Part shown: positions 5,871 through 59,209 of the stretch, one piece after another | Position numbering within the stretch: the stretch's first letter is position 1 | Layout: each line of letters begins with the position of its first letter | DNA from: Flammeovirgaceae bacterium | GTDB lineage: Bacteria; Bacteroidota; Bacteroidia; Cytophagales; Cyclobacteriaceae | Length of the DNA stretch: 59,209 nt | NCBI GenBank assembly: GCA_013204595.1 | Contig: JABMNK010000011.1 | Location: 1-59,209 of the forward strand | Direction: 5' to 3' | The notes under the pieces: generated by a model | What the model was told of the DNA's origin: nothing | Database searches by the model: none | What the model saw: the letters and a program-made list of their open reading frames with translations, nothing else | Program-made: the position numbers and the translations under genes

Positions 5871-7520
5871 TTATTGCTTAAATGCTTCAGGATGCTCGTC
5901 CTCATAAGGTGTTAATTCCTGGATGAATCTAGCCAACTCCAAAATACTTGCTTCATCAAAATGATTTCCTATTAAGGTAATTGATCCCGGATTTTTTGCT
6001 GCGTATGACCCATTGGGTAATACGACACACGGATGACCCGTTAAATTGGTTATCAGTAGTTGATCGCTGAAAGAGGGGGCCAATAGCACATCAATATCCG
6101 ATAGCAATTCATTGAAGGCAAGGGTGAGTTGATACCTCAGTCGATTGGCTTGAATATAGGAGACAGCAGGGACCATTTGGGCGGATCGGAATATATTCGG
6201 CCAAGCGTTTTCCGTTTGTCGGACCATAAGATCATCTTCATTAGATTGGGTAAGCACATCAAAAGCAGCAGCAGCCTCAACTTGCAGAATAAAACTGATG
6301 GCGGTCGCTGGAATGTTTTGTGGAAGTTTTTTTTCAATGAGTTCGAAACCCTGGGAACGAAGCAAATTCAAGGTGCTATTGTCATTTTTTGAATTTGATT
6401 TCGTTTCTTGAAAATCATGAAGAATTCCTATTCGGAGTTTTTTGATGTTCCGTGCATAGTCATAATTAAATGGGGCATCTCGAGTTGATAAATCGTTTAT
6501 ATCGGCACCTCTTATAGCTTCAAGGACTAAGGCGCAGTCCAAGGCATTCCTGCAAATTGGGCCCAATTTATCCATGGTCCAGCTCAAGGCCATGGCGCCA
6601 TTTTTGCTTACACGACCATAAGTAGGTCGAAGCCCAGTAGCACCACAGCGTGTAGAAGGGGAGACGATAGAGCCCCTTGTTTCACTTCCAATGGCAAAGG
6701 GGACCAATCCTGCAACGGTAGCCGATGTCGATCCCGCAGAAGATCCGCTGCTGCCTTCTGTCAGGTCCCATGGATTTCGCGTGACGCCGTCGTACCAGAC
6801 ATCACCCATGGCCAATGCGCCCAATGTTAATTTTGCTACCAAAATGGCACCTGCTGCTTCTAAACGGTTGATTACTTCTGCATTTTCTTCTATTATTTGG
6901 TTTTTGTAGGGCATAGCTCCCCAGGTAGTTTTGTAGCCAGCAACACTTAACAAATCCTTGGCACCATAGGGAATACCATGTAAAGGACCTCGATAAATAC
7001 CCTTTTCTAGCTCTAAGTCGGCACGCTTTGCTTGCGCACGAGCCATAGAATCAGTCAAGGTGATGACGCATTCTAGCGTATCCCCATATTTTTTTAATCG
7101 ATTCAGAAACAATTCAGTTAATTCTAGCGAGGTGATTTGTCGGTTTTTGATCAAATAACTAAGCGCACTAACTGGATAAAAGGCCAATTCGTCTCTATTT
7201 TGAGGTAGTTTCACCTCTCTAGGCAGTTGCCAATCTATTGTTGATTGTGTTTTTTGGATTCTGCTAGGATTAAGTGGAGGAGACCAAATTAATCCAAAAG
7301 GCATATCATTTTGAATATTTTGAGCCCTTAATGCTTCAAATTTAGCCGAATTTGCATGCACCGTACCCTTCATCTGGAGAAGCTCGGTGGAGTCAAAACG
7401 GAGACCGATGAGCTCGGATGCAATAAGTAGGCTGTCTTGGGCCATACTTTGATGATTACTCAAGTACAACATTAGTACAAAGAGGATCGTCATTAATTTT
7501 TGTATTGTCACTTGTCTCAT
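5871..7520 (-). CDS. Secreted amidase-signature family hydrolase
   Basis: This 549-residue protein has a signal peptide (cleavage after about residue 27, 'SMAQ'). The amidase signature core follows: the catalytic Lys in YGAKDLL (about 188), the Ser-rich loop GSSGSSAGS (256-264), and GSETRGSI (278-285) carrying the nucleophile Ser at about 284. The loop reads GSETRGS where most relatives have GSDTGGS, so substrate handling may differ. The family cleaves C-N amide bonds of varied small amides; the substrate here is unknown. Its ATG overlaps the stop of the upstream TRAP binding protein by 4 bases (ATGA), so both come from one transcript and work outside the cytoplasm. It is not GatA, because it is exported and lacks gatB/gatC neighbours. 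Confidence 0.88.
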   Translation of the reverse strand: MRQVTIQKLMTILFVLMLYLSNHQSMAQDSLLIASELIGLRFDSTELLQMKGTVHANSAKFEALRAQNIQNDMPFGLIWSPPLNPSRIQKTQSTIDWQLPREVKLPQNRDELAFYPVSALSYLIKNRQITSLELTELFLNRLKKYGDTLECVITLTDSMARAQAKRADLELEKGIYRGPLHGIPYGAKDLLSVAGYKTTWGAMPYKNQIIEENAEVINRLEAAGAILVAKLTLGALAMGDVWYDGVTRNPWDLTEGSSGSSAGSTSATVAGLVPFAIGSETRGSIVSPSTRCGATGLRPTYGRVSKNGAMALSWTMDKLGPICRNALDCALVLEAIRGADINDLSTRDAPFNYDYARNIKKLRIGILHDFQETKSNSKNDNSTLNLLRSQGFELIEKKLPQNIPATAISFILQVEAAAAFDVLTQSNEDDLMVRQTENAWPNIFRSAQMVPAVSYIQANRLRYQLTLAFNELLSDIDVLLAPSFSDQLLITNLTGHPCVVLPNGSYAAKNPGSITLIGNHFDEASILELARFIQELTPYEDEHPEAFKQ

Positions 7521-8647
7521 AGGATGTTTTGATAAAAGGCTTTCTCTGAAATAGTCATCCAGGGCACAATTTTTTTCTGAAAGTCCAAAAAGGCCTCATA
7601 AATTTTCTTGCTCTGCGGATCACTGGCGGTCAATTCTGCGATGGTTTCAATGGTATTAGCTCTAAAAGTTTTCATTACCTCATCTGGATAAAGCCTCATA
7701 CTTACGCCCTGTGAAGCCTGAATTTTCGGTAAATATTGAGCGTTCATGGTATCAAGCCTCACGGGTGTGATGCGGTTTAGGCGAAGGCATGCGGTACGGA
7801 TAATTTCTTGTAAATCTGTAGGTAGTGCTTCAAACTTGGATTTACTAACTAACATTTCTAGTACGGTGCCAAGTTCATGCCAACCTGGGTAGTAATAGTA
7901 TTTGGCTACATTTTGAAAGCCCATTAGATAGTCATGATAGGGGCCAATCCATTCGGTTGCATCTATCACCCCTCTTTCAAGATTGGTGTAGATTTCTCCA
8001 CCCGCCATTAGCATAGGGGTACCTCCTGATTTGGCCAATACCTTACCCCCGAGACCAGGGATTCTCATTTTGAGACCTTTTAGATCGTCTACTGAATTAA
8101 TTTCTCGGTTGTACCAACCGCCCATTTGACATCCTGTATTCCCAGCACTTATAGGGAGCAAATCAAATGGGGCGTAAAGCTCCTCCCAAAGTGCTTGTCC
8201 TCCGTTTCCCAAAATCCAAGTATCCATGAGTTGGGCGTTTACGCCAAAAGGGATCGTCGAGAGAAATTGACCTGCCGGTATTTTGCCGGCCCAGTAGTAT
8301 GCAGCACCATGATTCATTTCTACCGCGCCATTACTTACCGCATCAAACCCCTCTAAGGCAGGGATTAATTCACCACCACCATAGACGGTAATTTCCATTC
8401 GACCACCAGACATTTTTTTGACCCATGCAGCTAAGTCGCTACATCCTTCACCCAAAATAGGAAAATTCGGTGACCACGCAGTGGTCATTTTCCACCGATA
8501 GGTATTATTGAAATTAATATAAGGTCCTTTTTCTGAACTTTTAATAACTTGATCATTACATCCCAATAAACTTGCGGTGCTGGTTACAGCTACCGTTTGA
8601 AGTGATTTTTTCAGAAAATTTCTGCGGTTTTTCGCTGTTTTTTTCAA
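7517..8647 (-). CDS. TRAP transporter substrate-binding protein (TakP-like)
   Basis: This 376-residue protein starts with a twin-arginine-like leader (NRRNFLKKS at about 7-15) and a lipobox-like LLGC near residue 30, so it is probably an exported lipoprotein. The mature part is a DctP-family binding protein. The stretch around 'LERGVIDATEWIGPY' and 'KYYYYPGWHE' resembles the 2-oxoacid-binding TakP branch. No DctQ or DctM membrane subunits lie next to it, so it is an orphan binding protein in this window. It overlaps the downstream secreted amidase by 4 bases, which suggests that binding and amide hydrolysis are coupled, for example in scavenging an amide or organic acid. Ligand identity is inference. 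Confidence 0.88.
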   Translation of the reverse strand: MKKTAKNRRNFLKKSLQTVAVTSTASLLGCNDQVIKSSEKGPYINFNNTYRWKMTTAWSPNFPILGEGCSDLAAWVKKMSGGRMEITVYGGGELIPALEGFDAVSNGAVEMNHGAAYYWAGKIPAGQFLSTIPFGVNAQLMDTWILGNGGQALWEELYAPFDLLPISAGNTGCQMGGWYNREINSVDDLKGLKMRIPGLGGKVLAKSGGTPMLMAGGEIYTNLERGVIDATEWIGPYHDYLMGFQNVAKYYYYPGWHELGTVLEMLVSKSKFEALPTDLQEIIRTACLRLNRITPVRLDTMNAQYLPKIQASQGVSMRLYPDEVMKTFRANTIETIAELTASDPQSKKIYEAFLDFQKKIVPWMTISEKAFYQNIL

Positions 8648-32674: not shown

Positions 32675-32750
32675 TTTCTCAAAAGGGGCTATAAGACTAT
32701 AAATTTCCTACTTTCACTGTAAACAGTGATAAACAGTGGGTAGTTACTTC

Positions 32751-33301
32751 CTAGTTGATTATAGCGGCGGCTTCGTAATTTAAGCGATGTTTGGTTACTT
32801 CAAGAACAAACTGGCCTTTTCTCAGGGAGTCAATTCCTAATATAAATGATCTCGCTTCGCCTGGAAATAAATTGTTATCTTCTATTTTTTTAGCTTCAGG
32901 GTACCATTCCTATTCTTCGCCCATTCGTCTATTGGTCTGCTGGATGATGGAATCCGTTTCGTCTTTAACTGCGATACGAATATTATAAAATCTTTCAGGA
33001 TCTCCAGAAGGCACTTTATTGCCTGCATATTCATTTTTAAGAATCAGTTCATAGTAGAAGGAATCAATGGAGGCATAAGTTTTCTGCATACTTGATGCGT
33101 AAAATTCAATATCCTTTAAGCCGACAGCTTCCACGGTATCAAACTTGGAAATTCCTGAGCCGGGGAAATAGTGTCGATGGTTTTTCTTGATACCATAACC
33201 TGGCACTATTTCTCTTTCGACTGTTTCCATATGGCAGCTGATACAATTTTTTTCATTGTAAAATAGATCCGCCTTCCATTCATTGTATACCGTCAGCAAA
33301 A
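32751..33301 (-). pseudogene. 3' part of an inactivated multiheme cytochrome c gene
   Basis: Read on the minus strand, this piece begins '...YNEWKADLFYNEKNCISCHMETV' in two blocks, with one CxxCH haem motif (CISCH). It runs through 'GYGIKKNHRHYFPGSG' to 'GNKVPSGDPERF'. At 32910-32912 an in-frame TAG interrupts it after 'RRMGEE'. The frame then continues cleanly for 52 codons ('EWYPEAKKIEDNNLFPGEARSF' in pieces) to a TAG at 32751-32753. The missing front half lies at 37754-38405, so a 4.4-kb block split the gene. It belongs to the large family of periplasmic electron-carrying cytochromes with a C-terminal beta domain. Confidence 0.85.
33284..33301. repeat. 18-bp direct repeat, left copy
   Basis: TGTATACCGTCAGCAAAA is identical to 37754-37771 and in the same orientation. 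The two copies are 4470 bases apart and bracket the sulfite-oxidase block. At this side the repeat touches the broken cytochrome reading frame directly. It contains the small palindrome GTATAC. It may be a recombination or attachment site, or an unusually long target duplication. Confidence 0.85.
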
Positions 33302-33332
33302 AAGCCCACACATTTTTGTGCAGGCTTTTTTT
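33298..33332 (-). terminator. Terminator at the left end of the inserted block
   Basis: AAAAAAGCC pairs with GGCTTTTTTT across an inner CACA/TGTG stem. It ends the minus-strand sulfite-oxidase operon 27 bases after the desaturase stop and overlaps the tail of the direct repeat. Confidence 0.8.
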
Positions 33333-33358
33333 AGAAAATCGCTCAATTCTATTACTTG

Positions 33359-34234
33359 CTATTGTTGTCCTTTTTTAAATCCGTAAAGATTTTGACCAAT
33401 AAAATCTTTTGGAAATTTATCATCCCCTTCAAATCCGATTTCTATTGTTCCACTTTCTTCAGGGATATAATTTGTTTTGAAAATGTAATCCCACAGGCTC
33501 AAGCTAATGCCATAATTTACACCGTATTTACCTTCTGGCAATACAGATGCATGATGGTATAAGTGCATTACCGGATTGTTGAAAATATACTTTAATGGCC
33601 CCCAAGTAATTTTTACATTTGAATGATTTAAATGCCCAATAGTTATTGCGAAAAAGTGAACGATATACGCTTGCTCTGGCTCAAATCCTCCTAAGATCAT
33701 GACCCCAAAAGTCTTCAATGGCTTATATAAAATATTTTCCATCCAATGATATCGAAGATGAGCGGCAAAACCCATTTCTTTTACACTGTGGTGCACTTTG
33801 TGAAATTTCCATAGAAATGGATATTTATGTAACAACACATGCGTAAACCATTGCACGAAATCCAGAATAACAAAGAATACAAATAATTGCATCCACATGT
33901 TCCATTCAGAAATATTAATCAATGCTAGGCTCTTGACAGTGATGTTAATTTCTGCAAACAGCAAGCCTAGAATGTTATAAATACCTTCGATGGCAATAGA
34001 AAAAATGAAAAAGTTGAAAAACATGTAAAAACCATCTAGCCAAAAATCTTTTCTAATTTTAGCTTGATTTTTTCTCCAAGGAAAGGCAAGTTCTAATGAC
34101 CATGCAAACAGGGAAATGGCAATTAGTCCCCAAAAGTAATTGTTGTACCATGGTACTTGGAAAAGTATTGATCTCCAGGTCCAGTCCACTGTGCCTATAA
34201 AGGCATTAATAAAAGCATATAAGTATTCCATCAT
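33359..34234 (-). CDS. Sterol desaturase / fatty-acid hydroxylase family membrane protein
   Basis: This 291-residue integral membrane diiron oxygenase has the eight-histidine pattern: H132 and H136 (THVLLHKY), H145-H149 (FHKVHHS), H201-H204 (HLNH) and H224-H228 (HLYHH). Four or more membrane helices surround them (about 34-52, 68-95, 115-132, 185-203). The family hydroxylates or desaturates lipid substrates such as sterols, carotenoids, alkylglycerols or fatty acids. Here it is the last gene of a sulfite-oxidase operon, 2 bases after the (frameshifted) rhodanese reading frame. That is an unusual place; a lipid or sulfonolipid link can only be guessed. Confidence 0.9.
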   Translation of the reverse strand: MMEYLYAFINAFIGTVDWTWRSILFQVPWYNNYFWGLIAISLFAWSLELAFPWRKNQAKIRKDFWLDGFYMFFNFFIFSIAIEGIYNILGLLFAEINITVKSLALINISEWNMWMQLFVFFVILDFVQWFTHVLLHKYPFLWKFHKVHHSVKEMGFAAHLRYHWMENILYKPLKTFGVMILGGFEPEQAYIVHFFAITIGHLNHSNVKITWGPLKYIFNNPVMHLYHHASVLPEGKYGVNYGISLSLWDYIFKTNYIPEESGTIEIGFEGDDKFPKDFIGQNLYGFKKGQQ

Positions 34235-34236
34235 TA

Positions 34237-35168
34237 TTAAATGTTAATAGTGGTTATTGTGTCTTTTTTAAATTCTAAATCATCAAAATAACTCCATTCG
34301 GACCAGGAGCCATCATAGTTTTTCACATTGGTGTAACCTAATAATTGGGTTAGCACAAAAGTGGTATGTGCTAATCGAACACCACTATGGGCTCCTCCTT
34401 GTTTTTAGCAATGCCGTTATAAATAGCTGTCAATTCTTTAAAGGGTTTAAATTTTTTATTACCGTTGTAATCGATGGCCTGCGCCCAATCGAGGTTAATG
34501 CTGTTGGGAATCCGACCAGCTTTAGCCGCTCCCTTTTTTTGTCTTTTTCCTGAAAACTCGTCTGTCGATCTAGTGTCTAAAATAGTTACATTATCGATTA
34601 CTTTCTTTATTATAGATTCTTTTGAAATGTAATATTTCATTGAAGTACTATCATTCAATTTGAAAGAAGCTTTAGTGGTAACAGGAATTGCACTTGATAC
34701 AAGGCCGCCCTTTTTCTTCCATTCCTCAATTCCTCCATGTAGCAATTTAATATTAGTGAAGTCATAGTTTTGGAGCATCCACCATAGTCGTGTTGCATCG
34801 CACAATCCATTATCATCATAAACAACCAAAGTATCTATGTTGTTAATGCCTAAATTGTTAAATAGGTTTTCTATTTGAGTTTTGCCAGCCATCATTCCTT
34901 CGTACGGGAAAGAGGCATCCTCAATATCATTTCTCCAAATGTGTAAAGCACCTTCAATATGTTCTTGATCATAATTCTCTTTTTTTCTAAAATCAACGAG
35001 TTTAATAGAAGGGTTATTCACTTTCGCCATGAAGGCATCTATTTCAATCAGATAGTCTGTTTGTAATGTCTTTTCAGAAGATACAAATTCCACAGACTCA
35101 TTTGTTTCCTGTTGAGCGCAACCGGAAAGAATAATTAGCGAAATGGCTATATTAATCTTCCAATGCAT
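34237..35168 (-). pseudogene. Rhodanese-type sulfurtransferase lipoprotein, frameshifted at the active site
   Basis: The start at 35168 (MHWKINIAISLIILSGC) gives a lipobox Cys at 17. Two rhodanese domains follow. The first is 'IKLVDFRKKENYDQEHIEGA' to 'LLHGGIEEWKKKGG'. The second is 'VTILDTRSTDEFSG' onward. At about 34400 the frame breaks after 'IYNGIAKNK', and the open frame stops at 34371-34373. In another frame the expected ending reads on: '[15 protein letters not shown]', '[17 protein letters not shown]', to TAA at 34237-34239. Relatives have a YC just before QGGAHSG, so a deletion removed the catalytic Cys segment. The gene is dead or the sequence has an error. Confidence 0.8.
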
Positions 35169-35628
35169 ACCACTCAATTTTCGATAAATTCTCCCGTCTT
35201 CCTTTACTTTTTGGCGGGTAGTTGGTGACTAAATAATTCACTATGACATCCTGATTCTTACCAAGATCCCATAGATTTTGTGTTTGCTGCATCCATTTAA
35301 TAGTGGCATTCCAACGTTCAGCATTCATTCTATTTTGTAGTATTATTTTAGACGAATGGCAATTGGTACAGTTGTTTACAACCGTCATTAATCCTTCTGC
35401 ATCCACTAGGCCTGTCCTTACGTGGATTCCATTTTCAATTTTATTTTCATCTTCTACCACTACCACAGGAACACTTTTAACCTCAGGAGTGTGTTGAAGT
35501 GATGTTAAATTTGGATCGATTAGGTAATAAATGAAAAAAGTACTTGTAATGATGACCAGCCCTAACACCATCGATATTACATACCTAATTGCGGTTACAA
35601 TATTATTGAAATCTTTATCCTCTGCCAT
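35152..35628 (-). CDS. Membrane-anchored monohaem cytochrome c, sulfite-oxidase partner
   Basis: This 158-residue protein has an uncleaved N-terminal membrane helix (about 14-36), then a periplasmic domain with one haem motif CTNCH (87-91) and a Met-containing 'WMQQTQNLW' that could supply the sixth ligand. It starts 1 base after the molybdoenzyme stop and overlaps the rhodanese start, so it is the natural electron acceptor (SorB-like) of the sulfite dehydrogenase. It would pass electrons to the respiratory chain. Confidence 0.88.
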   Translation of the reverse strand: MAEDKDFNNIVTAIRYVISMVLGLVIITSTFFIYYLIDPNLTSLQHTPEVKSVPVVVVEDENKIENGIHVRTGLVDAEGLMTVVNNCTNCHSSKIILQNRMNAERWNATIKWMQQTQNLWDLGKNQDVIVNYLVTNYPPKSKGRRENLSKIEWYALED

Positions 35629-36849
35629 TTAACTTACTTTTACCGCAATTCTGTGACAAGCATTGTTAAGGTACCCTTTAGGGTTCCAGCCAGGAACTAA
35701 CATTGGTTGCGCAGTTCCTCGAGCATCCATTGCTTTGGCCCAAATTTCATAATATCCTTTTTTTGGAAAATCAACATTGGCAGAAAAATGTTGCCATGCT
35801 AAACGATTTGTGGGCTTATCAATTTTGCAACTTTTCCAAGTGGCACCGAAATCAATTGAATACTCCATCTTTTCAACTTCCAATTCACCGGCCCAAGCGT
35901 GGCCACTAATGGCAAGCGATGCTCCTTCTTTAACCATTGCTCCTGTTTTCGGAGATGTAATAAGCGATTTGACTGGCATCGATTCAATGATGCACATGTC
36001 TTCTTCTTTTACTTTCACGCCAGGCGCCACAGGCTCACAAGGCGTTTTGTAAGCATCGCCTGTCATTTTAGTACCATCGTGCACTCTATCTCTAATGCTA
36101 ATTCTGTTCAACCATTTCCCGGATACGGAAGCCGGCCAGCCTCCTGCAATCAATCGTAAGGGATATCCGTGGGCTAACGGAATATCCTCGTCATTCATTT
36201 TAAATGCTAAAATGGTTTCGTCTTGTAGCGCTTTAGGCATCGGGCAGCCTCTAGAAATTGGCTCTTTTTTCGGATCCATACTTAAATGTTTATCCGTTGC
36301 ATGAAAGCCTATGTAAACAGCATTACTCTTGATTCCAGCATCTTCCAATAAATCGCTAAGTCGTACTCCTGTCCATTTAGCACAATGCACCGCACCAATG
36401 GTCCATTGATTTCCTTTTGCTGGTGGATCGAATTCACTTCGGCCGTTGCCACCACATTCTAATGTTAATTGATAAGAGTATTGCTTAAATTTTGACTTAA
36501 GTTCTGCAAGTGTATAAGTCTTGGACCTCACCACCGACTCACCATCAATGGTTAGTGTCCAATTATTCACATCAATTTCTTCAGGGATCAATCCATTATT
36601 TCGAATGAACATACTTGAATTAGGAGTAACGGCATCATTTAGTAGATGTGCTTGAGCTTCAATATTCCATGGTTTGTCATTAAGTACTACCATGTCCTTA
36701 TGTTTTGTAAACATTTTAAAAGGATCTGGTTCTTGCAATGCGAGAGGATTATATCCTTTCGGCATGGTAGCACCAAATACAATATCAGCTCCTATAAGAG
36801 TTGCAAACGTGCTTAGGGTTGCTTTTTTAACAAAATCGCGTTTTTTCAA
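35629..36849 (-). CDS. Sulfite dehydrogenase molybdenum subunit (SorA/SoxC-like)
   Basis: This 406-residue exported molybdoenzyme has an N-terminal leader (KKRDFVKKATLSTFATLIGA) without a strict twin-Arg. The oxidoreductase molybdopterin-binding domain follows, with 'LTLECGGNGRSEF'; Cys132 is the likely Mo ligand. 'WTGVRLSDLLEDAGI', 'SRGCPMPKAL' and 'GYPLRLIAGGWPASVSGKWL' follow. The C-terminal immunoglobulin-like dimerisation domain is about 290-406 ('SGHAWAGELEVEKMEYS'). It oxidises sulfite, or a sulfane-sulfur intermediate, to sulfate. The cytochrome partner is directly downstream. SoxC-like and SorA-like branches cannot be separated here; no other sox genes are present. Confidence 0.9.
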   Translation of the reverse strand: MKKRDFVKKATLSTFATLIGADIVFGATMPKGYNPLALQEPDPFKMFTKHKDMVVLNDKPWNIEAQAHLLNDAVTPNSSMFIRNNGLIPEEIDVNNWTLTIDGESVVRSKTYTLAELKSKFKQYSYQLTLECGGNGRSEFDPPAKGNQWTIGAVHCAKWTGVRLSDLLEDAGIKSNAVYIGFHATDKHLSMDPKKEPISRGCPMPKALQDETILAFKMNDEDIPLAHGYPLRLIAGGWPASVSGKWLNRISIRDRVHDGTKMTGDAYKTPCEPVAPGVKVKEEDMCIIESMPVKSLITSPKTGAMVKEGASLAISGHAWAGELEVEKMEYSIDFGATWKSCKIDKPTNRLAWQHFSANVDFPKKGYYEIWAKAMDARGTAQPMLVPGWNPKGYLNNACHRIAVKVS

Positions 36850-36914
36850 AATGGTTAATTTTCATTAATTTAAAACTAAACTTGTCAAGATTATCATAAT
36901 TATTTTTCTTTTTG

Positions 36915-36930
36915 TGTAACAAATGTTACA
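36915..36930. promoter_or_regulatory. Crp/Fnr-type palindrome in the divergent intergenic region
   Basis: TGTAACA-AA-TGTTACA is a perfect 16-bp palindrome. It lies 66 bases upstream of the molybdoenzyme start and 56 bases before the preferred start of the divergent membrane protein. Its size and TGT..ACA edges fit dimeric Crp/Fnr-family regulators, some of which respond to nitric oxide or oxygen. The regulator is not in the window. The site also argues against the ATG at 36923, which is inside it. Confidence 0.6.
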
Positions 36931-36985
36931 AGTTATAAATAATCTGTCCTCTAAATTTAGAGAATTACTAAAAATACTAAAACTT

Positions 36986-37669
36986 ATGATAAAAGATTTT
37001 GAAACAAAATTTACCGGATGGGCATTTCTTGCAGCAGCGATGTTATTATGGGGCGGTTGGGCACTTTCATCACATCATGTTGGTGAATATTTAGTAGCCT
37101 CTGATTTTTCTGTTATTGGGGAACGTGTTTGGTACTGGATATGGATGTATCGAATCCACATTTTTGGATGGGTAACGATGGCTATAGCAACATTTTCGTT
37201 GGTTTCTATCACTTCTCGAAAAAACTTACGGGTTGTAATATTACCTGGTGCAGGAATGCTCATTGTAGGTACCTTTACATTAGCTATTGCCGCTGCTTTT
37301 TACTACAATTTTGGAGCATGGGGCGTGGGTAAAACGATGGGCAAATCAGCTACTGAAGTACAAGAATTTATGGATAGTATTCTTGCAACGAATCAATACG
37401 TGACCTGCTTTTTACGATTTGGAAGAATATTTTCTGGTGTTGGATTGGTGTTATTGGGCTTTGCCTTTGTGAAATGGAAATTATTTCCAACCTGGTTAGG
37501 CTATTTTACTGGAGTATTCGGTCTTGTGGCAATGGGAATTATTCTTGGAATACCTGATAATTTTGTAATCTACCAACCATTATTTCATATTAAAAGCATT
37601 TGGTTGGTGGTCATGGGAGTTACGCTTTTGACTAAAGGAGTGAATCTTTCCGAAGCCGATAAGGGATAA
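36986..37669 (+). CDS. Polytopic membrane protein, unknown function
   Basis: I do not recognise the family. From the ATG at 36986 (MIKDFETKFTGW) it has about 227 residues and six or seven hydrophobic helices: 'WAFLAAAMLLWGGWAL', 'IHIFGWVTMAIATFSLV', 'VILPGAGMLIVGTFTLAIAAAF', 'IFSGVGLVLLGFAFV', 'YFTGVFGLVAMGIILGI' and 'SIWLVVMGVTLL'. An earlier ATG at 36923 is rejected because it lies in the palindrome. It is divergent from the sulfite-oxidase operon and may share its control. No transporter signature motif is visible. Confidence 0.75.
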   Translation: MIKDFETKFTGWAFLAAAMLLWGGWALSSHHVGEYLVASDFSVIGERVWYWIWMYRIHIFGWVTMAIATFSLVSITSRKNLRVVILPGAGMLIVGTFTLAIAAAFYYNFGAWGVGKTMGKSATEVQEFMDSILATNQYVTCFLRFGRIFSGVGLVLLGFAFVKWKLFPTWLGYFTGVFGLVAMGIILGIPDNFVIYQPLFHIKSIWLVVMGVTLLTKGVNLSEADKG

Positions 37670-37705
37670 TTATGATTGATTAGATTCCATTAATAGAATG
37701 CGTAG

Positions 37706-37744
37706 AAAAGGGGACTTGAATTATTTTCAAGCTCCCTTTTTTAT
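37706..37744 (+). terminator. Terminator at the right end of the inserted block
   Basis: AAAAGGGGACTTGAA pairs with TTCAAGCTCCCTTTT (two internal mismatches), followed by a T-run. It ends the plus-strand membrane protein gene 10 bases before the right copy of the direct repeat. Confidence 0.8.
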
Positions 37745-37753
37745 TTACTAGTA

Positions 37754-37771
37754 TGTATACCGTCAGCAAAA
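37754..37771. repeat. 18-bp direct repeat, right copy
   Basis: This is an exact copy of 33284-33301 in the same orientation. The cytochrome-like reading on the far side only becomes convincing beyond about 37820, so the true right boundary of the inserted block may lie anywhere from here to there. Confidence 0.85.
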
Positions 37772-38405
37772 GTGAACTTATAAGGGTTAAATTATAAGAG
37801 AGTGTTTTAAACAGAGTAAATTACAATTTGAACAGCAGTAGCGTTGTGGCACGAAATACATAATTCTTCTGATAGAAAGTTAGCATTTTGTACCACCTCA
37901 TGGGGCACATCTAATGACCCATTTGGGCCAATGATCACCCCATCGCGAATAGGGCACTAGCACAGTTAATACCTTCTTGCTGAAGGGCCCTGTCGAATAA
38001 TGGATTTTCTTTCTTTACAGGTCGGTAAATATCACCGTCAACAAGGCCATCAATCACATAGGGTTGTTGATTTTGCAAAGGTGTATGACAGTTAATGCAC
38101 ATGAAAGGGCATGATTCCTTTCTGAGCTCCGCCTGAAATTGCAGATCTGTTCATGCATGAGCATGAGTGGATAATTTCCATTCTTGATAATGCTGTACAT
38201 GGCAAGTCCCGCAACTTGCAGCACTTATGGCATTCAATCCTTTAGGAATGGTCTGTTGAGGAACCGCTTTTTCCCAACTTTTGGTAAGCGGAAGAATCTT
38301 TCCTTTTGGCGGCTCACACCTTATCATCACGACGCAAACAACGATGAACAGAGTAAGGGTCGAAACCAAAGTAAAGAGTTGATATGGCCGAATTGATTTT
38401 CCCAT
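37754..38405 (-). pseudogene. 5' part of the inactivated multiheme cytochrome c gene
   Basis: Starting at the ATG 38405 there is a membrane/lipoprotein leader ('LFIVVCVVMIRC') and a haem motif CGTCH in 'AASCGTCHVQHYQEWKLS'. An in-frame TGA at 38151-38153 comes next. Reading continues with 'FQAELRKESCPF' and a second haem motif CINCH, then 'NPLFDRALQQEGINCAS'. Near 37955 the frame breaks inside the third haem motif and its His is lost. The next frame gives 'RDGVIIGPNGSLDVPHEVV' and a fourth motif CISCH before fading near 37820. With CISCH in the 3' part, at least five haem sites existed. The gene has independent stop, frameshift and insertion lesions. Confidence 0.85.
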
Positions 38406-58543: not shown

Positions 58544-59209
58544 ATGCGAATTTTGTCTGTACTAATGCTCTTGAGCTTTCAATTAACGGCCCAAGAATTG
58601 CCTGCTCGTTGGGATGAACTTACGGCGACGGATTGGCCGGTGGCACTTGAAAAATCCAATAAAACGTGTATTTTGCCTATTGGCATACTAGAAAAACATG
58701 GCCCGCATGCACCGATAGGTTCGGACCTGATCCACGTCCGTGAATGGTCGGCAAGGGCTACAAAAAAAGAATATGCCGTGGTTTTTCCAGATTATTTTTA
58801 TGGTCAAATAAATGAGGCCAAACAGCAATTTGGTACTTTTTCGTTGCCTAGTAAGCTGGTATGGGAATTGTTGGATGCCACTTGCGAGGAGATTGCCAGG
58901 AATGGATTTGATAAGATTGTTATTGTCAATGGGCATGGGGGGAATCCACAACTCATCAGGTATTTCATTCAATCACAGCTAGAGCGTAAGCGAGATTACG
59001 CAATATATTTTTTCGACCCTACGTTGCCAGCCGAGGTCATGGCCAAGGCGGGACAAATACGTAAATCTGACCCAAAAGGCGATCAGCACGGAGGCGAAAA
59101 CGAAACATCTTCCTTGTTGTACTTGCGACCTGATTTGGTAAAGATGGAGACAGCCACTATTGAATCAGGGGCAAATCAAAAAAGACTGGATTTAAATCCT
59201 GATTTATAT
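58544..59209 (+). CDS. Secreted creatininase-family amidohydrolase, 3' end outside the window
   Basis: The frame from ATG 58544 is open to the window edge (222 codons). A signal peptide (RILSVLMLLSFQLTAQ) precedes the creatininase fold. 'CILPIGILEKHGPHAPIGSD' gives the Glu/His/Asp metal ligands, 'IVIVNGHGGNPQLIRYF' the NGHGGN motif, and 'GDQHGGENETSSLLYL' the last His/Glu. Most relatives are cytoplasmic, so export is notable. It would open cyclic amides or similar bonds outside the cell. Substrate unknown. Confidence 0.9.
   Translation, partial: MRILSVLMLLSFQLTAQELPARWDELTATDWPVALEKSNKTCILPIGILEKHGPHAPIGSDLIHVREWSARATKKEYAVVFPDYFYGQINEAKQQFGTFSLPSKLVWELLDATCEEIARNGFDKIVIVNGHGGNPQLIRYFIQSQLERKRDYAIYFFDPTLPAEVMAKAGQIRKSDPKGDQHGGENETSSLLYLRPDLVKMETATIESGANQKRLDLNPDLY

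Follow-up and report, generated by a model that had tools for sequence, protein, structure and literature searches.

How did a set of sulfite-oxidation genes come to lie inside a cytochrome c gene, bounded by two identical 18-bp direct repeats and with no transposase among them? The question is raised by contig JABMNK010000011.1 of a Flammeovirgaceae bacterium (order Cytophagales), analyzed here from position 1 to position 59,209 of the forward strand (59,209 nucleotides, hereafter referred to as the window). We found that the insertion itself is real and that it is accounted for by a known kind of process: an acquired operon, accompanied by the remnants of an insertion sequence (IS), lies in a pseudogene. 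Both repeats are the left tip of one IS3-family-like element, and no new cassette type is required.

The repeats are the left tip of an insertion sequence

Exact matches to the repeat, TGTATACCGTCAGCAAAA, were found on one and the same strand at 33284-33301 and 37754-37771, just where a sequence-only reading of this DNA had placed it, and a search of the window allowing up to three mismatches detected no third site (mean expected by chance, 0.01). A search of the whole genome (3.01 Mb in 137 contigs) gave eight exact copies, and the six outside the window are all left ends of one IS. Five of them run into this IS at 100% identity across 98 to 1,474 bp, and the sixth (L006, on contig C120) belongs to a 175-bp derivative of this element with an internal deletion. 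Seven more sites in the genome match the 18-mer with two or three mismatches: the one on contig C64 is the same IS, the one on C87 is a related IS, those on C1 and C18 are IS-like by eye, and those on C119, C37, and C70 are not. A backward control pattern gave one match in the same mismatched search.

The intact copy, on contig C127, is 1,474 bp long and codes for OrfA, with an HTH_Tnp_1 domain (Pfam, 44.3 bits), and OrfB, with an rve core (89.7 bits), the latter positioned in the -1 frame relative to OrfA. Its ends are TG...CA, with imperfect terminal inverted repeats (TGTATACCGTCAGCAAAAAGTGAAC ... AGTCCACTTTTATTTGACGACATACA, the second being the right end). In this arrangement and in its ends the element resembles the IS3 family, in which an OrfAB fusion is produced via a programmed -1 frameshift, and OrfB passes the NCBIfam cut-off for IS3 (168.9 bits against 160). 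However, OrfB gets more bits from the IS481 model (199.5 bits, below the cut-off of 224), and the copies examined show no target-site duplication of at least 3 bp, whereas duplications of 3 to 5 bp are characteristic of the IS3 family. The earlier statement that no transposase is present holds for the block but not for the genome, whose intact IS encodes a predicted DDE-type (rve) transposase. The suspicion that a recombinase had acted in trans was well directed, this enzyme, encoded elsewhere in the genome, being the natural candidate.

When the intact IS was compared with the window by blastn, two matches were found, and the next ones had an E value of 0.89. The first, at 33284..33302 (+), corresponds to IS bases 1-19 (19/19 identical, E 0.002), so that the left copy of the repeat is 19 bp long in this comparison. 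The second, at 37754..37820 (+), is a left-end remnant comprising IS bases 1-68 with its tip toward the block (97% identity, one gap, E 2.7e-26). Both tips point in the same direction, the outer end of the left one abutting the cytochrome gene (junction at 33283/33284) and the outer end of the right one abutting the operon. The sequence-only reading had left the right boundary of the block uncertain by about 50 bases. This doubt is explained by the IS bases 1-68 that the right edge retains: 37754-37820 is IS DNA and not cytochrome, and the edge can be moved to 37820/37821, with an uncertainty of about 10 bp (the stretch 37821-37830 could be either IS or cytochrome).

Other copies of the element were available in a sister species (G003), which carries 11 nearly full-length matches to OrfB at 95-98% identity; ten of its IS copies (L177-L186) were taken for comparison. 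The length of the IS is 1,474 bp in 10 of 11 copies and 1,468 bp in the remaining one (L181 was measured from its inner left tip). Flanks matching over at least 3 bp were found around none of the ten G003 copies, nor around the intact copy of the present genome or the C120 derivative, and two IS copies show a 2-bp match. Such flanks would ordinarily be expected of an IS3-like element, and their absence from ten G003 copies could be due to rearrangements. Two of the G003 copies (L178 and L179) have a left-flank sequence in common, yet differ in their insertion points. In L181 (G003, contig C4), the full copy is directly adjoined by a left IS fragment (bases 1-270) that points the same way, and the DNA past the right end is unrelated. 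The C120 derivative, which is possibly MITE-like (miniature inverted-repeat transposable element), was joined from IS bases 1-33, 120-154, and 1343-1474 and retains both ends.

The interrupted cytochrome gene

The gene that hosts the block is a decayed pentaheme cytochrome c gene, whose 5' part is located at 37821..38405 and whose 3' part is located at 32749..33283, both on the minus strand. Our statements about it rest on 16 homologous proteins used as tblastn queries, of which two (L030 and L046) consist of the C-terminal part only and cannot bridge the insertion, while L050 is partly shortened in the same way; five CxxCH motifs are present in 13 of the 16 as extracted. Fourteen queries span the insertion collinearly, which bears out the claim that the two flanking parts are one gene and rules out that they derive from different cytochromes. 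For all 14, the 3' match begins exactly at 33284, which places that junction, and reaches about 32766, while the 5' match ends at 37831 (11 queries) or 37843 (three queries). Twelve residues are missing at the junction for 11 of the 14 queries and 16 to 20 for the other three.

The cytochrome gene is a pseudogene with lesions independent of the insertion, in addition to the loss of about 12 codons at the junction. In-frame stops interrupt it at 38151-38153 and 32910-32912, one of the heme motifs is hit by a frameshift near 37956, and the C terminus is degenerate.

The region is flanked by matches to ALDH and CotH, which are about 6.3 kb apart here. In eight of the nine sister species of the genus the same two are separated by about 430-645 bp, and the ninth genome (G008, 84% complete) gave weak ALDH and CotH matches only. 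Six of these eight have a SEC-C gene (one of them weakly) between ALDH and CotH, and with the 16 cytochrome proteins no match was obtained in this interval in any of the eight, so the locus in these species holds neither the cytochrome gene nor the block. A match to the 3' part of the cytochrome was found in 15 of 295 genomes of the family, counting the present one; the nine other genomes of the same genus had no match. The loci of the cytochrome homologues elsewhere (2.3-8.5 kb each) had no common neighbors apart from one distant ALDH-like match (L047).

Genes of the block

As had been described, five genes lie between the repeats. The first is a full-length open gene for a membrane protein of the fatty-acid-hydroxylase family (FAH; 33359..34234, minus strand; Pfam PF04116, 89.7 bits). 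It is followed by a gene for a rhodanese-domain protein (34246..35177, minus strand; PF00581) that is frameshifted at about 34377-34392, where the matches of all five homologues compared switch between two frames; relatives carry intact copies. Next are two full-length open genes, also on the minus strand, for a SorB-like c-type cytochrome subunit (35152..35628), with 55% and 63% identity to the two homologues used for comparison, and for the molybdopterin subunit of a SorA-type sulfite dehydrogenase (35629..36849; PF00174, 172 bits, and PF03404, 73 bits). The last gene, at 36923..37669 on the plus strand and also full-length and open, codes for a divergent 248-amino-acid protein, hydrophobic by eye, for which neither Pfam nor NCBIfam gives a family at E 0.001 and which has homologues near FAH genes.

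SorA combines the molybdopterin and dimerization domains, and the gene for the c-type cytochrome subunit is adjacent, as in SorAB enzymes. In contrast to the curated SorA and SorB, both proteins score below the NCBIfam equivalog cut-offs (230 bits of 600 for SorA and 27.3 bits of 93 for the SorB-like protein), and because of these scores we do not assert strict membership in SorAB; the enzyme would at most work like SorAB.

The edges of the block had also been described as transcription terminators. Terminator-like stem-loops could indeed be folded at both, but neither is among the predictions of a consensus terminator scan. The left one (33298..33331, no strand assigned) lies at the 3' end of FAH and has A/T tracts, its A-run overlapping that of the IS tip; the folding energy is -19.3 kcal/mol for the minus strand (z -6.0) and -14.4 kcal/mol for the plus strand (z -4.0). 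For the right one (37702..37744, likewise unassigned), which also has A and T tracts, the values are -20.3 kcal/mol for the plus strand (z -6.0) and -15.9 kcal/mol for the minus strand (z -6.3). At both edges, the strand with z -6.0 is that of the adjacent gene.

Origin of the operon

The operon appears to have been acquired horizontally and belongs to a branch whose carriers are mostly Flavobacteriaceae. The block looks foreign in its SorA identity, its gene order, and its base composition, its G+C content being 36.5% versus a mean of 39.6% for windows of 4.45 kb (standard deviation, 1.7; minimum, 36.8). SorA is present in eight of nine species of the genus, and the window SorA is 63-66% identical to these, compared with up to 81% identity to rows of a SorA tree. 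This tree comprised the window and 59 loci with at least 85% of SorA covered, leaving aside L020 (a duplicate of L042) and the own-genus copies of G001 and G008. The rows nearest to the window SorA by path are records of Yeosuana, Algibacter, and Winogradskyella, all of them Flavobacteriaceae. In the careful tree, the window SorA falls inside a clade of 17 rows (support 100/99), the 16 others being 10 Flavobacteriaceae/Flavobacteriales, one unplaced Bacteroidia, and five remaining rows, namely, G033 (from the window's own order), UBA2371 (Flammeovirgaceae), Ekhidna, and two rows of a single contig (G012 C282, loci L033 and L082).

The gene order points in the same direction. We fetched 82 other loci with FAH relatives, two of which are the same contig, and counted gene contents on 80. 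The ten first-listed loci have FAH proteins 78-84% identical to that of the window, and eight of these ten are Flavobacteriaceae by title or genus. SorA with an adjoining SorB-like gene stands beside FAH in 47 of the 80 loci, accompanied by rhodanese in 28, by the 248-amino-acid gene in 13, and by all five genes in six. In 13 of the 80, a gene 61-76% identical to that for the 248-amino-acid protein lies no more than 6 kb from FAH. The block follows the order of known SorAB operons, here mainly from Flavobacteriaceae (SorA, SorB-like, rhodanese, and FAH, with the 248-amino-acid gene in a subset), but differs from them in its frameshifted rhodanese and in a host that is placed in another order.

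The 18-mer was absent from all 82 FAH-bearing loci at up to two mismatches (one locus, L070, has a match with three), and hence operon and repeat do not travel together. When the flanks of the operon were compared in 12 carriers (without L071 and L073, in which the 248-amino-acid gene is on the other side of FAH), neighbors in common were found only among L063, L065, and L082. The first two are Winogradskyella loci, and their operon neighbors are matched by those of the contig G012 C282 in a Cytophagales metagenome-assembled genome, which may be a flavobacterial contamination or else a larger transfer. An IS21-like gene, recognized by eye only, is found near the operon in L067.

A search of plasmids gave 451 records with SorA relatives, all less than 60% identical. 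In the accessible portion of one study, 37 binned SorA sequences are placed in Myxococcota only (PMC12345210); as far as that portion goes, this assignment speaks neither for nor against the Flavobacteriaceae branch proposed here. Our literature search found no description of this operon as an IS-borne unit.

How the operon may have entered the cytochrome gene

Taken together with the IS remnants, the best account, and one that we consider probable, is that the operon was gained bracketed by two directly oriented IS copies, the bodies of which were both later deleted. A first copy would have inserted into the cytochrome gene, its left tip coming to lie at 33284, and the left tip of a second copy, in the same direction, would have abutted the operon at its right edge. 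Such a direct IS-operon-IS layout would be expected from a composite element, from a cointegrate, or from recombination between a resident IS and a circle that carried the operon and an IS. A deletion starting at about base 19, inside the A-run, and ending in the A-run of the terminator that belongs to the operon would then have removed the left IS body. The right one would have been lost through a deletion that began at about base 68 and extended into the cytochrome gene, removing about 12 codons as well, so that only the IS tips were left at the locus. Where the cytochrome gene and the operon meet TG, the junctions fall exactly on the IS tip, as a transposase would place them, and the inner junctions, after IS bases 19 and 68, look like deletions. 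A deleted IS copy that kept both of its ends does exist in the genome, on C120. The two separate IS copies, the order of the events, the donor, and the mode of entry are our inference.

Several observations weigh against this account. The locus has neither a full-length IS nor a right IS end, and therefore the second complete copy has to be deduced from a 19-bp tip. No target-site duplication is readable at the locus, the right IS end and about 12 cytochrome codons being gone, and no relative in an intermediate state was found. Regarding the acquisition itself, the window SorA is sister, with weak support (88/54), to G033, a genome of its own order, and the direct donor therefore need not be a member of the Flavobacteriaceae. 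An approximately unbiased (AU) test did not reject the grouping of the window SorA with those of its own genus (p 0.159, 29.4 log-likelihood units worse), so that the case for transfer also leans on identity and gene order. Finally, 31 of the 80 FAH loci have none of the four other genes nearby, and two have rhodanese only.

The layout resembles that of a composite transposon, or IS-bracketed translocatable unit, in that the cargo lies between two directly oriented IS left tips. Unlike a composite transposon with its two complete flanking copies, only IS bases 1-19 and 1-68 are present here; reduced to 19 and 68 bp, the unit is dead, and it may or may not once have moved as a whole.

Alternative explanations

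The account just given has one serious competitor, which we regard as considerably less likely. The IS in the cytochrome gene could first have decayed to a 68-bp left-end scar, after which an operon carrying an IS tip of its own would have recombined with it at the shared tips. If the block and one repeat are subtracted, what remains is indeed a simple scar of cytochrome, IS bases 1-68, and cytochrome, and the patchwork of the C120 derivative fits deletion at short repeats. However, the incoming DNA would have needed an IS tip beforehand, hence two IS contacts would still have been necessary, and 18 bp is a short substrate for homologous recombination.

It is improbable, in our opinion, that the transposase used the left end of the IS alone on the adjoining DNA, in which case left tips would be all that remained. 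This would agree with exact left tips at both edges and a right end at neither, with the left fragment (bases 1-270) that abuts a full IS in the same orientation in G003, and with the lack of matching flanks of at least 3 bp in 11 full-length copies and the C120 derivative. On the other hand, the two inner junctions (at bases 19 and 68) are unlike each other and resemble ordinary deletions, and no further gene-carrying example was seen among the copies examined, which were not surveyed systematically. The broader notion that this left end works alone and carries neighboring genes, its left-tip-only scars resembling cassette sites, seems to us slightly more doubtful still.

The window could also be an artifact in which the assembler joined unrelated contigs at the IS tip, the genome being in 137 contigs, several of them broken inside this IS. 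A chimera at the IS tip is unlikely, and we give this explanation very little credence. The contigs end 98-125 bp (left end, five contigs) or 60-119 bp (right end, three contigs) into the IS, and therefore 18 shared base pairs should not mislead the assembler. Moreover, the right copy carries differences of its own relative to the IS, and both halves of the cytochrome gene are in place, together with the neighbors seen in the sister species.

Least credible of all, to the point that we reject it, is a dedicated and undescribed cassette or trans-acting recombinase system with TGTATACCGTCAGCAAAA as its recombination site, which the exact direct repeats on both edges had suggested. As in integron-like cassettes, such a site should border unrelated cargoes without an IS body, but beyond the window all six exact copies are left ends of the IS, and at up to two mismatches the 18-mer is absent from the 82 FAH-bearing loci fetched. 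An IS-bracketed gene transfer, once worn down, can pass for a transposase-free cassette with exact direct repeats, and a whole-genome search should be run before naming cassette types from short direct repeats.

The resident SorA

The genome contains a second SorA gene, on contig C39 (L035, about 7255-8448). This resident copy groups with those of the genus (SH-aLRT 96) and has an in-frame TAG and an aberrant N terminus. Both SorA and the SorB-like gene in the block have full-length open frames, and the acquired SorAB may still be functional and may replace the stop-bearing resident copy. A sulfite dehydrogenase may have been reacquired in this way from other Bacteroidota during the decay of the resident copy.

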